From Acidobacteriota bacterium (lineage in GTDB: Bacteria > Acidobacteriota > Terriglobia > Acidiferrales > UBA7541): a stretch of 50,644 nt of DNA. Both the position numbers and the translations under genes were made by a program. The notes beneath the pieces are model-generated. The model saw only the letters and a list, made by a program, of their open reading frames with translations. It was not told the origin of the DNA and made no database searches. The DNA lies in NCBI GenBank assembly GCA_003166795.1, contig PMUS01000093.1, forward strand, positions 1,891 to 52,534, written 5' to 3'. Positions 10,857-21,584 of the stretch are shown here, piece by piece. Positions within the stretch are counted from its first letter, which is position 1; the number at the start of each line of letters is the position of its first letter.

Positions 10857-11681
10857 TTAGTCGATTTCCGTGACCGGACGCCCGCGCGCTTTCCCTTCTC
10901 CGTCATTCGCGCGGCGCACCAGTTCCTCCCGCATATGCTTTTTCAGATGCGGCGCGAGCCCTTCGAGTTTGGATATCTGCCTCAAATCGCCCAGGGGCAG
11001 CTGGGGCAAGAATGCCTGCACGGACGCGGCAGGCGTATGAGCGTTGCGGACCAGCGCGACCCGCACATTGTACTGGCAAGACCATTTTGGGTGGTGGGCG
11101 ATCGCCACGACAACACGCTCGGGCACGCCCGGCTTTGCCAGCACTTTCAACACCTGTGCCTCGGTGAGGAACGGATTCACGAGCGCCAGCTTGATTGCCT
11201 GAGCGTGTCCCTCCGCAAGTATCGCGCCGGCAACTCGCGACGGGCCGCGGCGCGCGAGCGTTAGCTTTTCTCCGACCGGGAGGTGCGGCACGCGCGTCAG
11301 GATGACTTCTTCGGCCACACGACGGATATCCGCCGGTGCGGACGGCAACAGGCTCAATCGCACCAGATCGAAAAGAAAAAGCTGCCGAACCGCCGCGAGG
11401 GCGAATCGCTTCGGGGTGCGCGGATGCCGCGCCAGTCGGAGCCGCACGCCTTCGCTCGACGTCCACTTCCCCTCTCCGGCAACAGCACTGAGAACGCTCG
11501 ACGGCAGATCGAGCCGTTCGAGCATCATCACCACGTGCGGTTCGTCGAGATTGGGATTTGCAAGCAGCGCCAGCAAAGCTTCCTCACCCGCTTCGTGCAG
11601 GAGCGATTTCAATTCGTCCCCGGCAGCCGATCGGGCGCGCTCGATCCGTGCGTCGGGTTCAGGCGGCATTGCCCTTTGCAT
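10857..11681 (-). CDS. Alpha-helical repeat protein, DUF2336-like or HEAT-like, unknown role
   Basis: A 274-residue, almost wholly helical cytoplasmic protein. It shows repeated helix pairs of the type LLALLANPNLDEPHVVMML, GVRLRLARHPRTPKRFALAAVR and AIKLALVNPFLTEAQVLKVLAKPG, where the sequence pattern N/H-P followed by a hydrophobic helix recurs about every 35-40 residues. This is how leucine-rich-variant or HEAT-type scaffolds look. Its start overlaps the end of the BadF kinase gene by 23 bp, so the two are likely coupled. Function is unknown. Confidence 0.7.
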   Translation of the reverse strand: MQRAMPPEPDARIERARSAAGDELKSLLHEAGEEALLALLANPNLDEPHVVMMLERLDLPSSVLSAVAGEGKWTSSEGVRLRLARHPRTPKRFALAAVRQLFLFDLVRLSLLPSAPADIRRVAEEVILTRVPHLPVGEKLTLARRGPSRVAGAILAEGHAQAIKLALVNPFLTEAQVLKVLAKPGVPERVVVAIAHHPKWSCQYNVRVALVRNAHTPAASVQAFLPQLPLGDLRQISKLEGLAPHLKKHMREELVRRANDGEGKARGRPVTEID

Positions 11682-12618
11682 TGCCCAGCCGCACGGCCAT
11701 CCGGACCGCAGCCTCGGCTGGAGACATTTCCACGGGAACGCTGACCACTCGCGGAACTGACGTCCTCAGCTCCGCATCAATCGCAGCATCGAAATATTTC
11801 GATCGCCCATTCGCGCCGCCCACCTTCGCAACTGGGACTTCTCGATCGCGCCAACCAAGTTCGCTCGCGACACACTCCACGAGTCCGGCGAGTGATACAG
11901 CGGCACCCGCGAGAATCCCGCGAGCGACCGCGTCGCCCTCGTCGGCTAGCGTTGCGACCAGCGAAAATGTCCTTGGAAAAACCGAGTCCGGATTCTTGGT
12001 GATCTGTTCGCCAAGCTGATCCCAATTGCGGCACTGATGAAACTCCAAAATCCGGCCAGAAAGCGCGGTCTCCGGTCCTCGACGCTCTTCCGCCAGCGTC
12101 ACCGCATGCGCGGCGCGTCGCCCGATATCAAAAGCGCTGCCTTCATCGCTGAACCATGGACCGCGCCCGCCCGCACGCGCCGTTCGGCCGCTGGCATCGC
12201 GGCCGAACGCGGCGGATCCCGTGCCGGCGAGAAGAATGATTCCTTCGCCCGAGCCGAAGGCCGCTTCGAGCGCGATTTCGAGGTCTGTCGTCACGCGGAC
12301 GCGCGCATTCGGATAGCCGTGCTCGAAGAAAGTCGTCGCGCGGCGCGCGACTTCCGACCGGCCGGCGCCTCCCAGCCCGGCGCAAATCCCGCGAATGTGC
12401 CCGGAATGAATCTTCTCCTGTTTCAAAACCGAGTCGGCCGCGTCGCTCAGTGAGAACCATGCCCGCGCGTAACCCGTTCGCACCGGGTTTGAGGGCCCCG
12501 CGGACGCGCGGGCGACTACGCGTCCCTCGGCGTCCGCCAGCACGCAATCCGTCTTGGTGCCGCCGCCATCGAGTCCAAGAAAATAAGAAGCTTCAGCAGC
12601 GGAAACTTTCTCTGGCAT
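11659..12618 (-). CDS. BadF/BadG-type sugar kinase, candidate MurNAc or GlcNAc kinase
   Basis: A 319-residue ASKHA-fold ATPase of the BadF/BadG/BcrA/BcrD family, which contains N-acetylglucosamine kinases and the MurK kinases for MurNAc and GlcNAc. The phosphate-1 motif GLDGGGTKTDCVLAD is at residues 14-28, the phosphate-2 block LLAGTGSAAFGRD is in the middle and an adenosine-type GGANG block near residue 268. The nearby NamZ, NagZ-AmiE, MurQ and SSS transporter genes suggest it phosphorylates MurNAc or GlcNAc after import; this is a context inference. It opens a minus-strand operon of five genes and is divergent from the symporter gene, 73 bp away. Confidence 0.88.
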   Translation of the reverse strand: MPEKVSAAEASYFLGLDGGGTKTDCVLADAEGRVVARASAGPSNPVRTGYARAWFSLSDAADSVLKQEKIHSGHIRGICAGLGGAGRSEVARRATTFFEHGYPNARVRVTTDLEIALEAAFGSGEGIILLAGTGSAAFGRDASGRTARAGGRGPWFSDEGSAFDIGRRAAHAVTLAEERRGPETALSGRILEFHQCRNWDQLGEQITKNPDSVFPRTFSLVATLADEGDAVARGILAGAAVSLAGLVECVASELGWRDREVPVAKVGGANGRSKYFDAAIDAELRTSVPRVVSVPVEMSPAEAAVRMAVRLGNAKGNAA

Positions 12619-12691
12619 GGACCTCTTTCAGTCTGCTTGACAGCCTCGGAAGCGGGCGGTTAGCATCGCGCGACCTGCCGGGCACGGCTCG

Positions 12692-14137
12692 ATGCGAATC
12701 AGCCCATTCGACTTCGCGATCATCGTTGCGTATCTCGTGGGCATCACCCTTTTCGGCGCGCACTTCCGCCGCGGCCAGCAAACCCTGCGCGATTACTTCC
12801 TTGGCGGCCGCACCGCGCCTTGGTGGGCAATCGCCTGCTCGATTGTCGCCACGGAAACTTCAACGCTGACGATCATCGGCACACCCGCAATCGCCTACGC
12901 GGGCAATCTCGGGTTTCTACAACTCGTATTGGGGTATATGGTCGCGCGGGTCATCTTGTGCGTGGTGCTCATCCCGCAGTATTTCCAGGGTGAATTTTAC
13001 ACGGCTTACCAGCTTCTCGAGAAGCGTTTTGGCAATCGGATGAAATCGGCGGCGGCGATCGTTTTCATGGGAACTCGCGCGTTGGCCGAGGGCGTGCGAA
13101 TTTCAGCGATCGGCAAAGTCGTAAGCGTCGCGTTCGGGACTGGCGAGCGGTGGTCCATCGCCATCGTGGCAGGGCTCACGATCGCGTACACGTTCGAGGG
13201 TGGGATGAGCGCCGTAATCTGGACCGATGTCGCGCAGTTCGCGCTGTATTTGACCGGCTCCGTCGCTGCTTTCTTTCTCCTCCTGCACAAAATCCCCGGC
13301 GGATGGCATCAGGTGACGTATTCAGCCGCGGCGGCCGGCGGAAAGCTTCGTGTGTTCGATTTCGCGTTCAGCCTGACCAGGAGCTACACCTTCTGGTCGG
13401 GCCTGCTCGGCGGAACTTTCCTCACCATGGCCAGCCACGGGACCGATCAGACAATGGTCCAGCGGCTTCTGGCGGCGCGGAATGAACGCGACAGCAAGAA
13501 AGCGCTGCTGGCAAGCGGCGTCGTTGTGTTCGTGCAATTCGCGCTTTTCCTCGTCCTCGGCGTGATGCTTTTCGTTTTCGCGCAACATGCGTCGCTGCCT
13601 GTGCAGGGTGACACGGATCGAATTTTCCCGGAGTTCATCGTGCGCGACATGCCCGTCGGCATGGCTGGCCTGGTGCTGGCGTCCATCTTCGCGATGGCCA
13701 TGTCGAACGCCAGCGGTTCGCTGAACTCGCTGGCCTCTTCGAGCGTGATTGATCTTGGCGCGCGCGGGGCAGGAACATCGCCGGCGCAGCAGCTCGTCCG
13801 CTCGCGGCGCCTGACGCTCGTCTGGGGTGTGGTTCTAGGGCTGCTGGGATTGATCCGCTGGGGCGGTGTGCTCGAGGCGGGACTCACGATCGCTTCGATC
13901 ACTTATGGCGCCATGCTCGGAGTTTTCCTGCTCGGCACCTGGAATCGTCGGGCAAATGAGAACGGCGCGCTCGTCGGATTTGCGGCTGGAATCGCGGCGA
14001 TGATCGCGGTGAGATTCTGGACGCCGCTGGCGTTCACCTGGTACGTGTTCGCCGGGACGATCGTAACGTTCGCCGTCGGTTCGGTCGCGAGCTTCGCGAG
14101 CGGCGCCGCGATCAAGCCCAGGGTCGTTCCAGAATAA
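12692..14137 (+). CDS. Sodium/solute symporter (SSS) family transporter, candidate MurNAc importer
   Basis: A 481-residue transporter of the sodium:solute symporter family with roughly 13 membrane segments. The first helix is FAIIVAYLVGITLFGAHF, followed by the family region DYFLGGRTAPWWAIACSIVATETSTLT. It begins 73 bp from the divergent BadF kinase gene. In Tannerella an SSS-type permease (MurT), as I recall it, works with a BadF-type kinase (MurK) and MurQ to take up MurNAc without a PTS. The same set is found here, so MurNAc is the leading substrate guess, though sialic acid, sugars and amino acids are all within the family range. Confidence 0.88.
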   Translation: MRISPFDFAIIVAYLVGITLFGAHFRRGQQTLRDYFLGGRTAPWWAIACSIVATETSTLTIIGTPAIAYAGNLGFLQLVLGYMVARVILCVVLIPQYFQGEFYTAYQLLEKRFGNRMKSAAAIVFMGTRALAEGVRISAIGKVVSVAFGTGERWSIAIVAGLTIAYTFEGGMSAVIWTDVAQFALYLTGSVAAFFLLLHKIPGGWHQVTYSAAAAGGKLRVFDFAFSLTRSYTFWSGLLGGTFLTMASHGTDQTMVQRLLAARNERDSKKALLASGVVVFVQFALFLVLGVMLFVFAQHASLPVQGDTDRIFPEFIVRDMPVGMAGLVLASIFAMAMSNASGSLNSLASSSVIDLGARGAGTSPAQQLVRSRRLTLVWGVVLGLLGLIRWGGVLEAGLTIASITYGAMLGVFLLGTWNRRANENGALVGFAAGIAAMIAVRFWTPLAFTWYVFAGTIVTFAVGSVASFASGAAIKPRVVPE

Positions 14138-14145
14138 TCGCAGAA

Positions 14146-15069
14146 TTAGAGCCGACGAAATCTGTCGGCTAGCGCGCCCGCCACAAACAGATCGGGATGG
14201 AGAAGGTGCGCAAGGAGCGCGACTCCATCGGCAAGACGCGGTCCCGGCCGGGAGAAGTAGGCGTTCGCATCAACCGCGAAGATACGACCCTCGCGCATGG
14301 CTGGCAATTGGTTCCAGCTCTCGGGAAACCGCGACACGTAGCATTCCTCGGCCGCGCGTGCGGAATTATATCCGCATGGCATGACGATAATCACGTCTGC
14401 GCGCGACTCCGCAATTTGCTCCGTTGTCACTTTGAACGAGGGCTCTCGCAAGCGCCCGAGCACGTCTTCCCCGCCGGCGCGGGAGACCATCTCCGGAATC
14501 CAGTGGCCGCCCACGTAATACGGGTCCAGCCACTCAAGACACAAAACGCGCGGGCGGGACCGAGCGCCGGCAGCCGTAGCGGCGATCGAGGCGACCTGCC
14601 GCGCCAGCGCCGCTGCGAGCGCGTCGGCTTCATTCTGGCGGCCGGTCGCTGCGCCAACGCGGCGGATATCGTTCCAAACTTCACCGAGTGAGCGCGGGGT
14701 CAACGAAAGAACCTGCGGCTGCTGCGGAAATCGCGCCAGCGCCGTCGCCAGATCGTCCGGAGAAGCAGCGCACACGTGGCACAAATCCTGCGTCAGGATC
14801 AGTTCGGGCGCGAGCGAGCGAAGGAGCTCGGCATCCACCGCGTAGATGCTCTCGCCGCGCGCGATAATTTCGCCGACCTGGCGGTCAATCTCCGCGGGCG
14901 GCGCGTGCGGGTCAATGCGCGTTCGAAGCAGCGAAGGTTTCGTCGCCGCGTCCGCGGGAAAATCGCATTCATGGCTGACGCCGAGAACCGAGTCACCCAG
15001 GCCGATGGCGTAAGCGATTTCGGTCGCGGACGGCAATAATGAACAGATGCGCATCGCGGGCTCAGTCAT
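14146..15069 (-). CDS. BtuF-like corrinoid/metal-chelate-binding protein, no signal peptide
   Basis: A 307-residue member of the periplasmic-binding-protein-like cobalamin-binding family. Diagnostic blocks are RICSLLPSATEIAYAIGLGD and GVSHECDFP at the N-terminus, APELILTQDLCHVC, LCLEWLDPYYVGGHWIPEMV and VIIVMPCGYN. No signal peptide precedes them. The ATG at 15069 overlaps the namZ stop by 8 bp, suggesting coupled translation; an internal ATG at 15054 would start with MRICSLLP directly. The upstream part of the open frame is read-through of namZ. Signal-less members of this family are widespread and their role is not settled. Confidence 0.87.
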   Translation of the reverse strand: MTEPAMRICSLLPSATEIAYAIGLGDSVLGVSHECDFPADAATKPSLLRTRIDPHAPPAEIDRQVGEIIARGESIYAVDAELLRSLAPELILTQDLCHVCAASPDDLATALARFPQQPQVLSLTPRSLGEVWNDIRRVGAATGRQNEADALAAALARQVASIAATAAGARSRPRVLCLEWLDPYYVGGHWIPEMVSRAGGEDVLGRLREPSFKVTTEQIAESRADVIIVMPCGYNSARAAEECYVSRFPESWNQLPAMREGRIFAVDANAYFSRPGPRLADGVALLAHLLHPDLFVAGALADRFRRL

Positions 15070-16309
15070 ACAGTAGATACTTTGCGCGCGTCCTACGGAA
15101 CTTGTCGAGGTCGGCGGACCAGCCGGACACGATCTCGGCGGGTGCGTCACCCCGTTTCAAGCGATCGACAGTGGATTGCGAGCCGAGAAGCTCGATGGTC
15201 TTCTCGATCTGAAACTTGTCCGGGTACATGCGATGCAGCACCTCGGCAATTTCAAGCCCCATGCGCATGGATTGAAGCTCGCTGCGATTCGTAATGCTCA
15301 CCGTCACGCCCTGGCATGGCTCGCCGCGATAGAGATCGTCGCTCGGAGTGAATTGCGCAGCCACAAAGCTCACGCCCGGGATCTTGCGACGGGTGAGCTC
15401 CGCGGCAAATTCGTCCGCGCGAACCCAGGGCGCGCCAATCTTTTCAAACGGCGCATCCGTGCCGCGCCCAACGGAAACGCCGCCCGCTTGCAGAATCTCG
15501 ATGCCGGGATAAAGGAATTCGGCGTTCAGCGTACGCAGGTTCGGCGAAGGAGGAATCCATGTGAGTCCCGTCTGATCGTAGGTTTCGCTGCGGCGCCAAT
15601 TGCTCATGGTTACAACGTGCAAATCCGCGCCGATTTTGTTCTCGGCATTGAACATCTGCGCGAGCTCGCCCGGCGTCATGCCGTAACGCACGGGCATCGG
15701 GAAATATCCGGTGAAGGACGTGCGGTCGGGGTCGAGCATCGGCCCCTCGACCACTTCTCCGCCCAGCGGGTCGGGGCGGTCGAAAACAACGAAAGGAATG
15801 TGGTGCTTCGCGGCCGCTTCCATGCAATACGCCATGGTCGTGACGTAAGTGTAGAAGCGGACTCCGGCGTCCTGTATGTCGAAGATCAAAATGTCGATGC
15901 CTTTCAACATCTCATCCGTCGGACGGCGCGTCTTGCCGTATAGGCTGTAGATTCGAACGCCGGTCGCAGGGTCGGTGCTATTTGCGATGGCCGCGTCGGC
16001 CTTCCCGTTGATGCCATGCTCGGGGCTGAACATCGCAACGAGCTTGAAACTCTCCCTCCCAGCGAAATAGTCGATTGTGGGCCGTCCCTGGAAATCCACG
16101 CCCGTCTGGTTTGTGATCAGGCCAATGTGTTTGCCCGCGAACGGTTCGGAGTTCATGGATTCGTAAATGTCGACGGCTGTGAGCGTGTGGCTCACTCCGG
16201 CGAATTGCCCGGAACGCATTGGTGCGCAAAACAACCATGCGATTGTGACCACAGCGAAAATGGCTTGAGAACGGTAACGAAACATGGTCGAGACGCTCGA
16301 TTGTGCCAC
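15062..16309 (-). CDS. namZ: Exo-beta-N-acetylmuramidase NamZ (GH171, DUF1343)
   Basis: A 415-residue secreted glycosidase of family GH171 (formerly DUF1343, YbbC of Bacillus), which removes MurNAc from the non-reducing end of peptide-free murein chains. The signature SPEHG with its catalytic-type glutamate appears in KLVAMFSPEHGINGKAD, followed by YSLYGKTRRPT, IFDIQDAGVRFYTYVTTM and VFDRPDPLGG, all typical of the family. A signal peptide is seen in FRYRSQAIFAVVTIAWLFCAP. GTG at 16309 or ATG at 16285 may be the start. It is divergent from the NagZ-AmiE fusion 64 bp away and overlaps the BtuF-like gene. Confidence 0.93.
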   Translation of the reverse strand: MAQSSVSTMFRYRSQAIFAVVTIAWLFCAPMRSGQFAGVSHTLTAVDIYESMNSEPFAGKHIGLITNQTGVDFQGRPTIDYFAGRESFKLVAMFSPEHGINGKADAAIANSTDPATGVRIYSLYGKTRRPTDEMLKGIDILIFDIQDAGVRFYTYVTTMAYCMEAAAKHHIPFVVFDRPDPLGGEVVEGPMLDPDRTSFTGYFPMPVRYGMTPGELAQMFNAENKIGADLHVVTMSNWRRSETYDQTGLTWIPPSPNLRTLNAEFLYPGIEILQAGGVSVGRGTDAPFEKIGAPWVRADEFAAELTRRKIPGVSFVAAQFTPSDDLYRGEPCQGVTVSITNRSELQSMRMGLEIAEVLHRMYPDKFQIEKTIELLGSQSTVDRLKRGDAPAEIVSGWSADLDKFRRTRAKYLLYD

Positions 16310-16373
16310 ATGAAATCGCGTGCTATATACAGCTACGGGATGCAGGCGTCAACAAAGAAGGCCCACGGTGGAA

Positions 16374-19295
16374 ATGATGCGTAAATGGGGGCTTTCAACG
16401 GCGGCGCTGGTCCTCGCGGCAATATTCTCGCTCATGACACCTCCCGCCCGCTCGCAAAAAAAATCCCCGGCGAACTCAACGCCAACTGCCTCGAATGCCT
16501 GGGTCGAGCAGACGCTCAAGAAGATGACACTGCGCGAGAAGCTCGGGCAGATGCTGATGGTGACATTTTTCGGCGTGTTCGATTCGGCCGAAAGCCCCGA
16601 GTATCGTGAGGTGCTTCACGAGGTCGAGGACAATCACGTCGGCGGCCTAATCATTGTCACCGATCGCGGGCCGCTCGGACTTGAGCGAAGCCAGGTGTAC
16701 CCCACCGCCGTGATGACAAACGAACTCCAGCGCCGCGCGAAAATTCCGCTCCTGGTTGGCGCGGATTTCGAAGCCGGCACTGGGATGCGACTCGACGAGG
16801 GCACGTCGTTTCCTTCCGCGATGGCGATTGCCGCGACGGGCGACCCGAAACTCGCGTACGCCGCTGGCAAATACACGGCGCTCGAAGCGCGGGCGGCCGG
16901 TGTGCAATGGATCTTCGCTCCGGATGCGGACGTTAACAACAACCCCGACAATCCAATCATCAACATACGATCTTTCGGCGAGGACCCGGCGAGCGTCGCG
17001 GAATACGTGAAGGAGTTCGTGCGCGGCGTTGAAGACAACGGCGCGCTGGCGACGGCGAAGCATTTCCCGGGACACGGCAACGTCGGCGTGGATTCGCATA
17101 TCTCGCTGCCCACAGTGCCGGGCGACCGCAATGAGCTCGAAGGAACCGAACTCGTTCCCTTCCGCGCAGCGATCGCCGCCGGCGTGAGTTCCATCATGCC
17201 GGGCCATCTGGCTGTGCCGGCATTCGAGCCCGATCCCGCGATTCCGGCGACACTTTCGCGAAATATTCTGAGTGGCCTGCTGCGCGACGACATGAAATTC
17301 CGGGGCCTGATCATTACCGACGCTCTCGACATGGGCGGCGTTGCGTCGAACTATCCTCCGGGCGAGGCTGCTGTGCGGGCAATCGACGCCGGTACGGACG
17401 TGCTTCTAATGTCGCCCTCGCCCGACGCAGCGATCGCCGGGCTCGAGGAAGCAGTGAAATCCGGCCGCATCTCCGAGAAACGAATTGACGCTTCCGTGCG
17501 AAGAATTCTGGCAGCCAAAGCCCGGCTGGGACTCAACAAGAACCGCACGGTTGACGTCGCGCGGCTGAACGAGAAATTCGCGCGCCCGGAATATGAAACA
17601 GAAGCGCAAAACATCGCCGATCGCGGCGTCACCCTGCTGCGCGATGCACCTTGGCTCCTGCCGCTGGACGCCACCAAGCCGCTGCGCGTGTTGCTGGTCG
17701 CGCTTTCCTCCGATGCCGATCCGAACCCGGGCGAGACGATCGAGCCGGAAATTCGCCCGCGCGTTGACTCGCTCAAAGTCCTGCGCGCGGATACGCAATA
17801 TTCGCCCGTCAGCACGCTGAAGCTCCCGCCGCCGGACACGTACGATGTGGCAATAGCAGCCCTTTTTGTGCGCGTTGCAGACCGCAAGGGCGACGTCGGC
17901 TTTCCGGACGACCAGCTTGCGTTCGTGAACCAATTGCTGGCCGCGGGTAAGCCGACCGTGGTCGCTTCTTTCGGCAGCCCGTACCTGATCGAGCGATTTC
18001 CGAACGCGAAGACGTGGCTCGCTGAGTTCTCAACCAACGATGTCTCGCAGCGCGCCGCAGCTCGCGCGATATTCGGGCAGATCACGATCAGCGGCAGGAT
18101 TCCGGTGACCGTGCCCGGAACCGTGCAGCGCGGTGACGGCATGCGGGTAGCCGAAAATCCGATGACGCTGCAGCCCGCGCCCGCGGCGTGGACGGAGCGC
18201 CTGAAGCCGGCCTTCACTTTACTCGACCGCGCGGTTGCCGACGGTGCTTTCCCCGGGGGTGTACTCGCTGTCGGGTGGAACGGCCAGCTTGCGGTGCACC
18301 CGTTCGGGAAACTCGAACTGGATGGCGAGGAATACGAGGTAGATGAAGACTCGATGTACGACGTCGCCTCGCTGACGAAGCCAATCGTCACGACCACGGC
18401 GGTGATGATGCTCGTGCAGCAGGGCCGGCTCGATCTAAATCGCCCGGTCGAGAACTATTTGCCCGATTTCGCGGCTGCCGCAAAGTCCGACCCGGACCCG
18501 GCGTGGCGCGCTCGCGTCACTCTCCGCATGCTGCTTCTGCACGATTCCGGGCTTCCCGATCATCGCGACTTTTACAAGCAAGCGAAGGGTCACGACGCGA
18601 TTCTGGCGCGCGTTCTCGCTGAGCCGCTCGTTCGCGAGCCCGGAACGCAGGTGGAATATTCCGACCTGGGATTCATTCTGCTCGGCGAGATCGTCGAGCG
18701 GCTGACCGGCGAAACTCTTGATACCTTTGCAAAGCGCGAAATCTTTCAGCCGCTCGGGATGGACCGTTCCATGTTTAATCCGCCGCGCAAGCTGCGCGAA
18801 GACATCGCGCCCACGGAAATGGACTCGACCTTCCGCAAGCGGCTCGTCTGGGGCGAAGTACACGACGAAAACGCCTGGGCCATGGGCGGAGTTGCAGGGA
18901 ACGCAGGCCTCTTTTCGACCGCTGGCGACATCGCTGCATTCGCCCAGATGATTCTCAACGGAGGCATCTACGGCCACGAGCGCCTCCTCGCATATTCCAC
19001 GATCCGGCAGTTCACGGCGCGCCAAACGATTGGCGGTTCGGCGCGCACTCTCGGCTGGGATGTGCCCGAGGAGCCGTCCTCGTCGGGCCGCTATTTTTCA
19101 GCCACAAGCTTCGGGCACACCGGCTTTACGGGCACGTCCCTGTGGATCGATCCCGAGCGGAAGCTGTTCGTCGTTCTCCTGACAAACCGCGTGAATCCCA
19201 CGCGGGCCAACGAGAAGATCCGGCAAGTGCGCCCTGCGCTGCACGACGCGATCTTCGAAGGTCTGGGGCTGGCTTCCGGCCAGGCCGCCCGATAA
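16374..19295 (+). CDS. Secreted NagZ (GH3) and AmiE-like serine hydrolase fusion
   Basis: A 973-residue two-enzyme protein. Residues 1-28 form a signal peptide (MMRKWGLSTAALVLAAIF). The GH3 beta-N-acetylglucosaminidase part has KHFPGHGNVGVDSH at 229-242, the NagZ hallmark, and the candidate nucleophile Asp316 in ITDALDMGG; a GH3 C-terminal alpha/beta domain follows to about 590. The last 360 residues are a serine beta-lactamase-like hydrolase: Ser666-x-x-Lys669 in ASLTKP, YSD, and HTGFTG replacing KTG. In Bacillus NagZ and the beta-lactamase-like amidase AmiE are separate neighbours of YbbC/NamZ; here they are fused. ATG at 16374 gives the signal peptide and is preferred over upstream starts. 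Confidence 0.92.
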   Translation: MMRKWGLSTAALVLAAIFSLMTPPARSQKKSPANSTPTASNAWVEQTLKKMTLREKLGQMLMVTFFGVFDSAESPEYREVLHEVEDNHVGGLIIVTDRGPLGLERSQVYPTAVMTNELQRRAKIPLLVGADFEAGTGMRLDEGTSFPSAMAIAATGDPKLAYAAGKYTALEARAAGVQWIFAPDADVNNNPDNPIINIRSFGEDPASVAEYVKEFVRGVEDNGALATAKHFPGHGNVGVDSHISLPTVPGDRNELEGTELVPFRAAIAAGVSSIMPGHLAVPAFEPDPAIPATLSRNILSGLLRDDMKFRGLIITDALDMGGVASNYPPGEAAVRAIDAGTDVLLMSPSPDAAIAGLEEAVKSGRISEKRIDASVRRILAAKARLGLNKNRTVDVARLNEKFARPEYETEAQNIADRGVTLLRDAPWLLPLDATKPLRVLLVALSSDADPNPGETIEPEIRPRVDSLKVLRADTQYSPVSTLKLPPPDTYDVAIAALFVRVADRKGDVGFPDDQLAFVNQLLAAGKPTVVASFGSPYLIERFPNAKTWLAEFSTNDVSQRAAARAIFGQITISGRIPVTVPGTVQRGDGMRVAENPMTLQPAPAAWTERLKPAFTLLDRAVADGAFPGGVLAVGWNGQLAVHPFGKLELDGEEYEVDEDSMYDVASLTKPIVTTTAVMMLVQQGRLDLNRPVENYLPDFAAAAKSDPDPAWRARVTLRMLLLHDSGLPDHRDFYKQAKGHDAILARVLAEPLVREPGTQVEYSDLGFILLGEIVERLTGETLDTFAKREIFQPLGMDRSMFNPPRKLREDIAPTEMDSTFRKRLVWGEVHDENAWAMGGVAGNAGLFSTAGDIAAFAQMILNGGIYGHERLLAYSTIRQFTARQTIGGSARTLGWDVPEEPSSSGRYFSATSFGHTGFTGTSLWIDPERKLFVVLLTNRVNPTRANEKIRQVRPALHDAIFEGLGLASGQAAR

Positions 19296-19385
19296 CTCCC
19301 TCGGCACAATCTCTACCAGAATCCTGCGAGGAGCCGCCACTGAGGCTTCGCTGCCGCTATAATTATTCAGGGTCTGGGGCGCTCC

Positions 19386-20306
19386 TTGAAGGCATCGAGG
19401 ACAGAACAACGGAACCCGCGTTCGCGCGGGCTTGACAGGAAGTCAACTCTCGATATTTTGCGCGCGCTCAGCCGGGAAGATGCAACCGTTGCGCTGGCCG
19501 TGCGCCGGGAGCTGCCGCAGATTGCGCTCGCGGTGGACGCCATCGCGAAATCGCTGCGGGGCGGCGGAACGCTTTTCTACATTGGCGCGGGAACGAGTGG
19601 CCGGCTCGCGGTGCTGGACGCGGCAGAATGCCCGCCGACATTCGGAACTCCACCTGGAATGGTGCGGGCGATCATCGCCGGTGGCGAACGGGCGCTGCGG
19701 CACGCGGTCGAAGGCGCGGAGGATTCCGCGGCAGATGGCGCGCGCGATTTGCGGCGAGCAGGCGTATCGCGCGGCGATGTGGTCGTGGGGATCGCTGCGA
19801 GTGGCGCGACCGCTTACGTGCTCGGCGCGCTTGCGTGTGCGCGGCGGCGGGGCGCCGTCACCGTCGGGGTGACTTCGAATTCACGCTCGCCGGTGGCGCG
19901 CAAGGCGCGCATCTCCATCTCGCCCGACACCGGGCCGGAGGTGATCGCCGGTTCCACGCGAATGAAGGCCGGGACGGCGCAGAAGATGGTCCTGAATATG
20001 CTTTCTACTGCCGCGATGGTGCGGCTCGGTCGAGTCTACGAGAACTGGATGGTTCACGTGGCGCTGACAAATCAGAAGTTGCGGCGACGCGGCGCGCGGA
20101 TTCTGGAGGAAGCGGCGGGCGTAAGCCTGTCCACTGCGGAACACGCTCTGCGTCAGGCGGGCCACAATCTGCCGTCTGCGCTGGTCATGCTCAAGACCGG
20201 AGTCAGCGCGCGCGATGCGCGGCAACGGCTGGCGGCAGCAGGCGGCAGCGTCCGGCAGGCGCTGGAAGCAGCAAAGAAACATCAAACTAATCTCAGGGGC
20301 CGGTAA
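19386..20306 (+). CDS. murQ: N-acetylmuramic acid 6-phosphate etherase
   Basis: A 306-residue cytoplasmic SIS-domain enzyme that cleaves the lactyl ether of MurNAc-6-P to GlcNAc-6-P and D-lactate. Family blocks are TEQRNPRSRGLD at the start, FYIGAGTSGRLAVLDAAECPPTFG with the catalytic-type glutamate, HAVEGAEDS, VVGIAASG and GSTRMKAGTAQKMVLNMLSTAAM. Length is normal. The start is a TTG at 19386; there is no in-frame ATG upstream before the stop at 19341, and a TATAAT at 19358-19363 fits a short leader. It sits 90 bp after the NagZ-AmiE gene and 6 bp before murA. Confidence 0.95.
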   Translation: MKASRTEQRNPRSRGLDRKSTLDILRALSREDATVALAVRRELPQIALAVDAIAKSLRGGGTLFYIGAGTSGRLAVLDAAECPPTFGTPPGMVRAIIAGGERALRHAVEGAEDSAADGARDLRRAGVSRGDVVVGIAASGATAYVLGALACARRRGAVTVGVTSNSRSPVARKARISISPDTGPEVIAGSTRMKAGTAQKMVLNMLSTAAMVRLGRVYENWMVHVALTNQKLRRRGARILEEAAGVSLSTAEHALRQAGHNLPSALVMLKTGVSARDARQRLAAAGGSVRQALEAAKKHQTNLRGR

Positions 20307-20312
20307 CAGGAC

Positions 20313-21584
20313 ATGGACCGATTCAAGATTCAAGGCGGGCGCAGGCTCGAAGGCGAAGTCCGAATCAGCGGAGCGAAGAACGCCGCGCTGCCGGCCATGG
20401 CGGCGTCGCTGTTGACGGCCGAAGCCGTGCACCTCAAGAATATTCCCCACGTGCGCGACATTATCACGATGGCAAAGCTGCTCGCGCACATGCGTTGCAA
20501 GGTGGAAAGCCCCGACATCCCGCCGAGCGAATTCGTCATTCGCGCCGAGAGCGTCTCGCACGCGGAAGCGCCGTACGAACTGGTGAAGACCATGCGCGCC
20601 TCGGTCCTGACGCTCGGCCCTCTGGTCGCGCGATTCGGCTATGCGCGCGTTTCCCTTCCCGGAGGCTGCTCGATCGGCGCGCGTCCGATTGATATGCACA
20701 TCCAGGCGCTGGAAAAGCTAGGCGCGACGATTTCGGTGGATCATGGCTACGTCGAAGCGCGAGCGACGCGCCTTCACGGCGCTGTGTTCCGCTTTCCGAA
20801 GATCACGGTCACGGGGACGGAAAATATCCTCACGGCCGCCGTGCTGGCCGAAGGCGAAACCGTTCTCGAAAATTGCGCGCTCGAACCCGAAATTCCCGAT
20901 CTCGCCGCCCTGCTCGTCAAAATGGGAGCGAAGATCGAGGGCGCTGGGACGCCCACGATTCGCGTGCAGGGTGTTGATAGACTCCACGCCGCGACGCACA
21001 CCATCATTCCCGATCGGATCGAAGCGGGCACATTCCTCGTGGCCGGAGCCATCACCGGTGGCGAGCTGCTACTGAAGCACTGCGAACCCCAGCACTTGAC
21101 CGCCGTCATCGAAAAACTCAAGGAGTGCGGTGTCGAAATCAAGTGCGAGGGGAAGGGCGGGCTGCGCGTGCGCGCCGCGAAAAAACTCGTAGCAGCCGAC
21201 GTCAACACCGAGGAATATCCCGGCTTTGCGACCGATATGCAGGCGCAGTTCATGGCTCTGGCCACGCAAGCGCACGGCATTTCGCATATCCGCGAAACAA
21301 TCTTTGAGAATCGCTACCTCCACGCAAGCGAGATGGTGCGCATGGGCGCAAACATCTTGGTTGACGGGAATACGGCGGTGATTACCGGACCGGCACAGCT
21401 CAGCGGGGCTCCTGTCACGGCCTCGGATCTGCGCGCCAGCGCGGGACTCGTCCTCGCGGCGCTCGTCGCCAGCAACACCACGTGGATTGACCGCGTTTAC
21501 CACATTGACCGCGGCTACGAACAGATCGAGCTGAAACTCACCGCGCTCGGCGCGAGCATCGAGCGCGTCACCCAACAGTCCTGA
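20313..21584 (+). CDS. murA: UDP-N-acetylglucosamine 1-carboxyvinyltransferase
   Basis: A 423-residue EPSP-synthase-fold enzyme that transfers enolpyruvate from PEP to UDP-GlcNAc, the first committed step of peptidoglycan synthesis. The N-terminal substrate block ISGAKNAALPAMAASLL and the active-site loop PGGCSIGARPID with Cys119 are both present; that cysteine is the residue fosfomycin alkylates, so the enzyme should be of the sensitive type. The start is 6 bp after the murQ stop, so the two genes are almost certainly cotranscribed, linking recovery of GlcNAc-6-P with re-entry into UDP-MurNAc synthesis. Confidence 0.97.
   Translation: MDRFKIQGGRRLEGEVRISGAKNAALPAMAASLLTAEAVHLKNIPHVRDIITMAKLLAHMRCKVESPDIPPSEFVIRAESVSHAEAPYELVKTMRASVLTLGPLVARFGYARVSLPGGCSIGARPIDMHIQALEKLGATISVDHGYVEARATRLHGAVFRFPKITVTGTENILTAAVLAEGETVLENCALEPEIPDLAALLVKMGAKIEGAGTPTIRVQGVDRLHAATHTIIPDRIEAGTFLVAGAITGGELLLKHCEPQHLTAVIEKLKECGVEIKCEGKGGLRVRAAKKLVAADVNTEEYPGFATDMQAQFMALATQAHGISHIRETIFENRYLHASEMVRMGANILVDGNTAVITGPAQLSGAPVTASDLRASAGLVLAALVASNTTWIDRVYHIDRGYEQIELKLTALGASIERVTQQS

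Follow-up and report, generated by a model that had tools for sequence, protein, structure and literature searches.

Transport of N-acetylmuramic acid (MurNAc) without a phosphotransferase system (PTS) has until now been tied mainly to the Bacteroidota. Tannerella forsythia has an ampG-ybbC-murT-murK-murQ transcription unit (PMC5388701, PMC5790795); it lacks MurA/MurB and AnmK, uses AmpG, and its MurK strongly prefers MurNAc. In Bacillus subtilis, a murQRP-amiE-nagZ-ybbC cluster (PMC5061867) combines exported, exolytic hydrolases with the PTS transporter MurP for import and phosphorylation, and with MurR. Here we describe a gene cluster in which NamZ (YbbC), a NagZ-AmiE fusion, MurQ and MurA lie together with a transporter of the sodium/solute symporter (SSS) family and a BadF-type kinase. 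It is located on a 50,644-nucleotide stretch of DNA ("the window") from a soil Acidobacteriota bacterium (Terriglobia, Acidiferrales, UBA7541; assembly GCA_003166795.1, contig PMUS01000093.1, forward strand, positions 1,891 to 52,534). We consider it fairly probable that the cluster would serve a cell-wall sugar salvage that needs neither a PTS nor AmpG, with presumed substrates for the kinase and the symporter.

As in Tannerella, NamZ, a sodium symporter, a BadF-type kinase and MurQ are adjacent and a PTS is missing; unlike there, the kinase is distant from Tannerella MurK (Tf_MurK) and resembles MurK of Clostridium acetobutylicum (CaMurK), NagZ-AmiE and MurA belong to the cluster, AnmK is encoded elsewhere and AmpG is absent. 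With Bacillus the locus shares NamZ, NagZ, AmiE and MurQ in one place, but it has an SSS symporter and a kinase, no PTS and no MurR in the cluster, and NagZ and AmiE are fused. A first-pass annotation of this DNA had likened the locus to the Tannerella logic supplemented with the exolytic Bacillus set. This holds for the symporter beside the kinase, for MurQ and NamZ, for the missing PTS and for the exolytic enzymes, but not for the kinase, which is not of the Tf_MurK type. Both halves of this logic have been published, in Tannerella and Bacillus; new, so far as the literature shows, are their combination, the Clostridium-type kinase, a symporter clade that spans several phyla and carries a residue signature, and the finding that few genomes of the class have AmpG.

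Gene content and active sites

The source assembly (3.92 Mb, 92.9% complete) was searched family by family. The six genes named in the first-pass annotation are all present where it had placed them, with Pfam and NCBIfam scores far above chance: a BadF/BcrAD-type amino-sugar kinase, probably a MurNAc/N-acetylglucosamine (GlcNAc) 6-kinase (11659..12618, minus strand; PF01869, 1e-27), the SSS-family Na+/solute symporter, a putative MurNAc importer (12692..14137, plus strand; PF00474, 1e-37; TIGR00813 above cut-off), the exo-beta-N-acetylmuramidase NamZ (15062..16309, minus strand; PF07075, 3e-85; PF20732, 2e-42; PDB 4k05, 4e-81), a 973-residue fusion of NagZ, of glycoside hydrolase family 3 (GH3), with AmiE, a serine beta-lactamase-fold amidase (about 16374..19295, plus strand; PF00933, 2.5e-90; PF01915; PF00144, 1.8e-67), the MurNAc-6-phosphate etherase MurQ (19386..20306, plus strand; TIGR00274, 380 bits against a cut-off of 302) and the UDP-GlcNAc 1-carboxyvinyltransferase MurA of the Cys type (20313..21584, plus strand; TIGR01072, 564 bits). 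The cluster is not a single operon, as it contains at least two divergent pairs, kinase/SSS and NamZ/NagZ-AmiE.

The complete Bacillus-type set of NamZ, NagZ and AmiE is thus found near murQ, and its catalytic motifs are intact (KHFPGHG-NVGVDSH and ITDALDM in NagZ, SLTK and HTG in AmiE, SPEHG in NamZ), as are AAECPP of MurQ and PGGC of MurA. The NagZ part matches B. subtilis NagZ at 1e-68. Among the three GH3 genes of the genome, the NagZ His-Asp motif occurs only in the fusion in the stretches examined, and a second NagZ-type GH3 was not found in the genome. The closest NCBIfam counterpart of the C-terminal AmiE domain is PBP4B, whose gene belongs to the murQ operon of E. coli. NamZ and NagZ-AmiE have hydrophobic N-termini, judged by eye, and are presumably exported. 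Many Terriglobia, and also Planctomycetota, encode AmiE-NamZ fusions of about 810-910 residues, in which an extra AmiE-like (serine beta-lactamase-fold) domain precedes NamZ (e.g. L040:13781-16279, L044:11984-14548, L154:11361-13877 and L153:6838-9558).

PTS, AmpG and AnmK

The first-pass annotation had seen no PTS gene (murP) in the neighbourhood, and this extends to the whole genome: the PTS EIIC domain (PF02378) is absent from it and reaches the cut-off in none of 20 relatives, the E. coli and B. subtilis controls being positive. The designation "PTS-independent" therefore holds. AnmK was likewise reported as missing, which is correct for the neighbourhood but not for the genome, where the gene lies on another contig (C71:15033-16187); it was found in 53 of the 61 genomes searched. 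AmpG was not detected in the source genome and exceeded the cut-off in only seven of these 61. The components of an E. coli-type, cytosolic AmpG-NagZ-AnmK recycling pathway are hence represented in this 93% complete assembly by AnmK and by a NagZ-type GH3 in fused form only, with no AmpG.

Across 250 Terriglobia genomes, AmpG scored above cut-off in 26 and NamZ in 219, with AmpG present in 14 of the 219 NamZ-positive and 12 of the 31 NamZ-negative genomes (Fisher, 5e-6). We do not take this inverse association as strong evidence, because the genomes with AmpG and without NamZ belong to few lineages, namely family f5 and genus g7.

The anmK gene overlaps by 4 bp a gene for a family-5 solute-binding protein, SBP_bac_5 (C71; L130:10019-12972). 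This pair recurs in 24 of the 33 Acidiferrales genomes that have enough flanking sequence to judge, and also in families f10 and f11 (labels f1, f2, f3, f6, f10 and f11 denote families, G008 and G017 genomes, of our comparison set). The encoded protein is a candidate muropeptide-binding protein in a lineage mostly without AmpG. Recycling without AmpG is also known for the Agrobacterium YejBEF-YepA system (PMC9790009); YepA, however, has been reported only from Alphaproteobacteria. The anmK partner showed no significant association with the kinase cluster (20/5 against 4/4, p 0.17). The idea that the symporter might also import anhydroMurNAc for AnmK is weakened by the binding-protein gene overlapping anmK.

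Conservation of the gene set

Positions of kinase, NamZ and MurQ in Acidiferrales genomes were tallied by hand. All three were found in 26 genomes. In 21 of these they share a contig and span no more than 16 kb; the remaining five have a contig end between them, so that every genome without such an interruption (21/21) has them clustered. The same gene order is seen in 13 genera of the family as well as in families f2 and f3, and the cluster is therefore more than a chance arrangement. The survey of gene order in relatives that the first-pass annotation had proposed thus shows the set kept together.

Kinase

A profile built from 28 orthologues of the kinase, the only BadF-type match in the genome, was run against PDB. 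It matched CaMurK (8zo3), reportedly characterised in 2011 by Reith, over the whole length at 1.1e-64, followed by S. tokodaii hexokinase (1e-40), the human and C. violaceum GlcNAc kinases (about 1e-28) and Tf_MurK (2e-8); a single-sequence search against CaMurK gave an E-value of 3e-30. In the tree, where branches are long, the kinase grouped with CaMurK and apart from the hexokinase and C. violaceum NagK (85/85). CaMurK, the closest characterised kinase, matches over the full length and shares a GG-x-G at the lactyl pocket; it is nevertheless distant in sequence, and the window's genus has Arg for the Trp of GGWG and Thr, not Asn, before the catalytic Asp.

Small residues in place of the Glu/His of other kinases, which are said to keep MurNAc out, reportedly leave room for its lactyl group (PMC10465942). 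The corresponding position here, mapped via an Asp seven residues on, is Gly150-Gly151-Arg152; the Ser-Pro-Leu of Tf_MurK is not there. The small Gly (GGRG/GGWG) agrees with CaMurK and human NagK (Gly-Gly-Trp), without a bulky Glu/His. Human NagK takes muramyl substrates, and MurNAc therefore stays among the conceivable substrates of the window kinase. A second rule for MurNAc specificity, a Thr before the catalytic Asp, was not used, as CaMurK has Asn at this position and still uses MurNAc. From these comparisons, a dual MurNAc/GlcNAc kinase of the CaMurK type appears likeliest.

Symporter

The closest relatives of the symporter, at 78-90% identity, come from metagenome-assembled genomes of Candidatus Acidiferrales and Acidobacteria. 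Clustering with proline or pantothenate carriers, which the first-pass annotation had named as a counterargument, is not seen: scores are 60 bits for PutP (cut-off 515) and 57 bits for PanF (cut-off 328). In a tree of 84 SSS proteins, the symporter falls into a clade of 29 members (support 99 in the Shimodaira-Hasegawa-like approximate likelihood ratio test), 28 of which are encoded within 10 kb of NamZ, NagZ, MurQ or kinase; the sole unlinked member belongs to Opitutia. This murein-linked clade spans Acidobacteriota, Planctomycetota and Wallbacteria. Its members in Isosphaeraceae and Kuenenia adjoin AmiE-NamZ genes, and in the Wallbacteria representative the symporter, a MurQ-like etherase and NagZ stand in a row. 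SSS relatives outside the clade (at most 35% identity) are almost all unlinked to murein genes.

Six residues are invariant in the clade: E55, T56, Q77, R86, R136 and H249. Among 47 unlinked SSS proteins T56 occurs in 15% and the other five in none. Among solved structures, SiaT of Proteus mirabilis, a symporter for sialic acid, comes closest in both sequence and fold (5nv9/5nva; E-value 6e-53, TM score 0.89, 30% identity), with the iodide symporter close behind in the structural comparison (Z score 45.5 against 46.6). The signature residues sit in helices matching those of the SiaT substrate site and presumably line the pocket, as judged from the alignment rather than from coordinates. At what we take to be this site, T58 and R135 of SiaT correspond to E55 and A132 here, S60 and T63 being kept. 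The SiaT site is thus only partly preserved, next to a distinct conserved set with R86, R136 and H249, which argues for a substrate different from that of SiaT; an acidic N-acetyl sugar would be a natural guess.

At murQ in families f3, f6 and f10 stand members of another, distantly related SSS group (SSS2), which are about 600 residues long and lack the signature residues (L112:5289-7112, L113:10688-12445, L114:10387-12189, L117:11706-13616 and L118:8782-10563). Recruitment to murQ loci thus seems to have involved two unrelated SSS lineages.

Proposed pathway and alternative explanations

According to our proposal, AmiE would remove the stem peptide from MurNAc outside the cytoplasmic membrane, and NagZ and NamZ would trim GlcNAc and MurNAc, respectively, from the non-reducing ends of the glycan fragments. 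The free MurNAc, possibly also GlcNAc, would be imported with sodium by the SSS symporter, and the single BadF-type kinase would phosphorylate both sugars at C6. MurQ would then convert MurNAc-6-P to GlcNAc-6-P and D-lactate, and GlcNAc-6-P would enter catabolism (via NagA) or, through UDP-GlcNAc, be delivered to the adjacent MurA. Anhydro-sugars would take the separate AnmK route, likewise ending at MurQ. The absence of PTS EIIC, the conserved gene set, the linkage of symporter and NamZ across phyla and the intact active sites support a salvage of this PTS-free kind, for which we infer the substrates of symporter and kinase as well as the direction of flux. The short distance of 3-4 kb between the kinase and murQ-nagA in f10 is likewise in its favour.

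Several observations weigh against this proposal, which is drawn from sequence comparison. For CaMurK, GlcNAc is a substrate at least as good as MurNAc (PMC5790795), so the window kinase could be specific for GlcNAc. AnmK could feed MurQ without kinase or symporter, and the presence of SSS2 at murQ means that linkage alone cannot settle which protein is the MurNAc carrier. Beyond the order the set splits into pairs, leaving kinase with murQ-nagA in f10 and NamZ with murQ in f6 and f11. The 96% complete genome G017 has NamZ and no kinase match; conversely, G008 (L031:5456-11149) has the kinase, a BtuF-like gene (see below), NagZ-AmiE, MurQ and MurA, but lacks NamZ. NagA, required between GlcNAc-6-P and UDP-GlcNAc, had no match above cut-off in the source assembly. 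It is present in 45 of the 61 genomes searched, including most congeners, and outside the order is often found beside murQ; as 7% of the genome is missing, its absence may be an assembly gap. The first-pass annotation had taken the start of murA 6 bp past murQ as tying sugar recovery to reuse. The spacing is correct, but the tie is unproven, since NagA was not found and MurA is single-copy, murA as the sole such gene of the genome being a housekeeping gene.

Symporter and kinase might instead form a pair for the uptake of GlcNAc from chitin or murein, with MurQ serving only the AnmK route for anhydroMurNAc. The wide occurrence of AnmK, the ABC-type binding protein encoded in overlap with it as a possible separate entry, and the best NCBIfam match of the kinase, a GlcNAc kinase model (though its 124 bits fall short of the cut-off, 370), would agree with this. 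We nevertheless regard such a pair as rather unlikely, considering that MurNAc freed by NamZ needs an importer, that symporter orthologues of Planctomycetota directly adjoin AmiE-NamZ genes, that the invariant Arg86, Arg136 and His249 fit an anionic sugar, and that the nearest solved relative transports sialic acid, which like MurNAc is an N-acetyl sugar with an acidic group. A different question is whether the set mainly scavenges foreign peptidoglycan, i.e. soil necromass, as food, which would concern its purpose and not its chemistry. Exolytic, exported enzymes and a symporter fit external substrates, and the placement of nagA beside murQ in further families of the Terriglobia points to catabolism, whereas the conserved murQ-murA adjacency and the presence of AnmK fit recycling. 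Both uses may coexist and sequence cannot separate them, so that predominant scavenging is a serious possibility, if one we would put somewhat below an even chance. It is very improbable, finally, that the genes are functionally unconnected neighbours held together by inherited synteny around murA-pnp. The housekeeping role of murA and pnp and the conservation of the block inside a single order would fit this view. Yet SSS with NamZ, kinase with murQ, NamZ with murQ, and SSS with a MurQ-like protein and NagZ recur in other contexts and phyla, and these cross-phylum linkages contradict mere synteny.

Extending the proposed PTS-free salvage beyond this locus, we tentatively suggest, with more doubt than confidence, that the signature clade comprises MurNAc symporters of several phyla and that Terriglobia generally recycle without AmpG, by exolytic hydrolysis and a symporter, plus an ABC route for anhydro-fragments via the binding protein co-transcribed with AnmK. 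If true, the Acidobacteriota, a dominant soil phylum, would follow a parallel route with no PTS and mostly no AmpG; the signature residues would be a simple marker for MurNAc carriers in uncultured genomes and would allow testing what the MurNAc carboxylate binds to.

Neighbouring genes

Two further genes of the cluster had gone unmentioned in the first-pass annotation. Open reading frame ORF274 (10857..11681, minus strand) encodes an alpha-solenoid (LRV-like) protein and overlaps the 3' end of the kinase gene, with which it is kept in the order; its homologues share 39-82% identity across genera, and the overlap is found in nearly all relatives. The AlphaFold model has a predicted local distance difference test score (pLDDT) of 90; a search for similar structures returned none at E <= 0.001, and 12 of 23 homologues show a weak match to PF01816 (LRV). 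A promoter-like site, TTGACA-18-TAGCAT (12637..12666, plus strand), precedes the symporter gene as a consensus match only. The second gene encodes a BtuF-like binding protein (PF01497; about 14146..15068, minus strand); its ATG overlaps the stop codon of NamZ, to which it is apparently translationally coupled, and many f1 genomes keep it in the gap that separates the symporter from NamZ.

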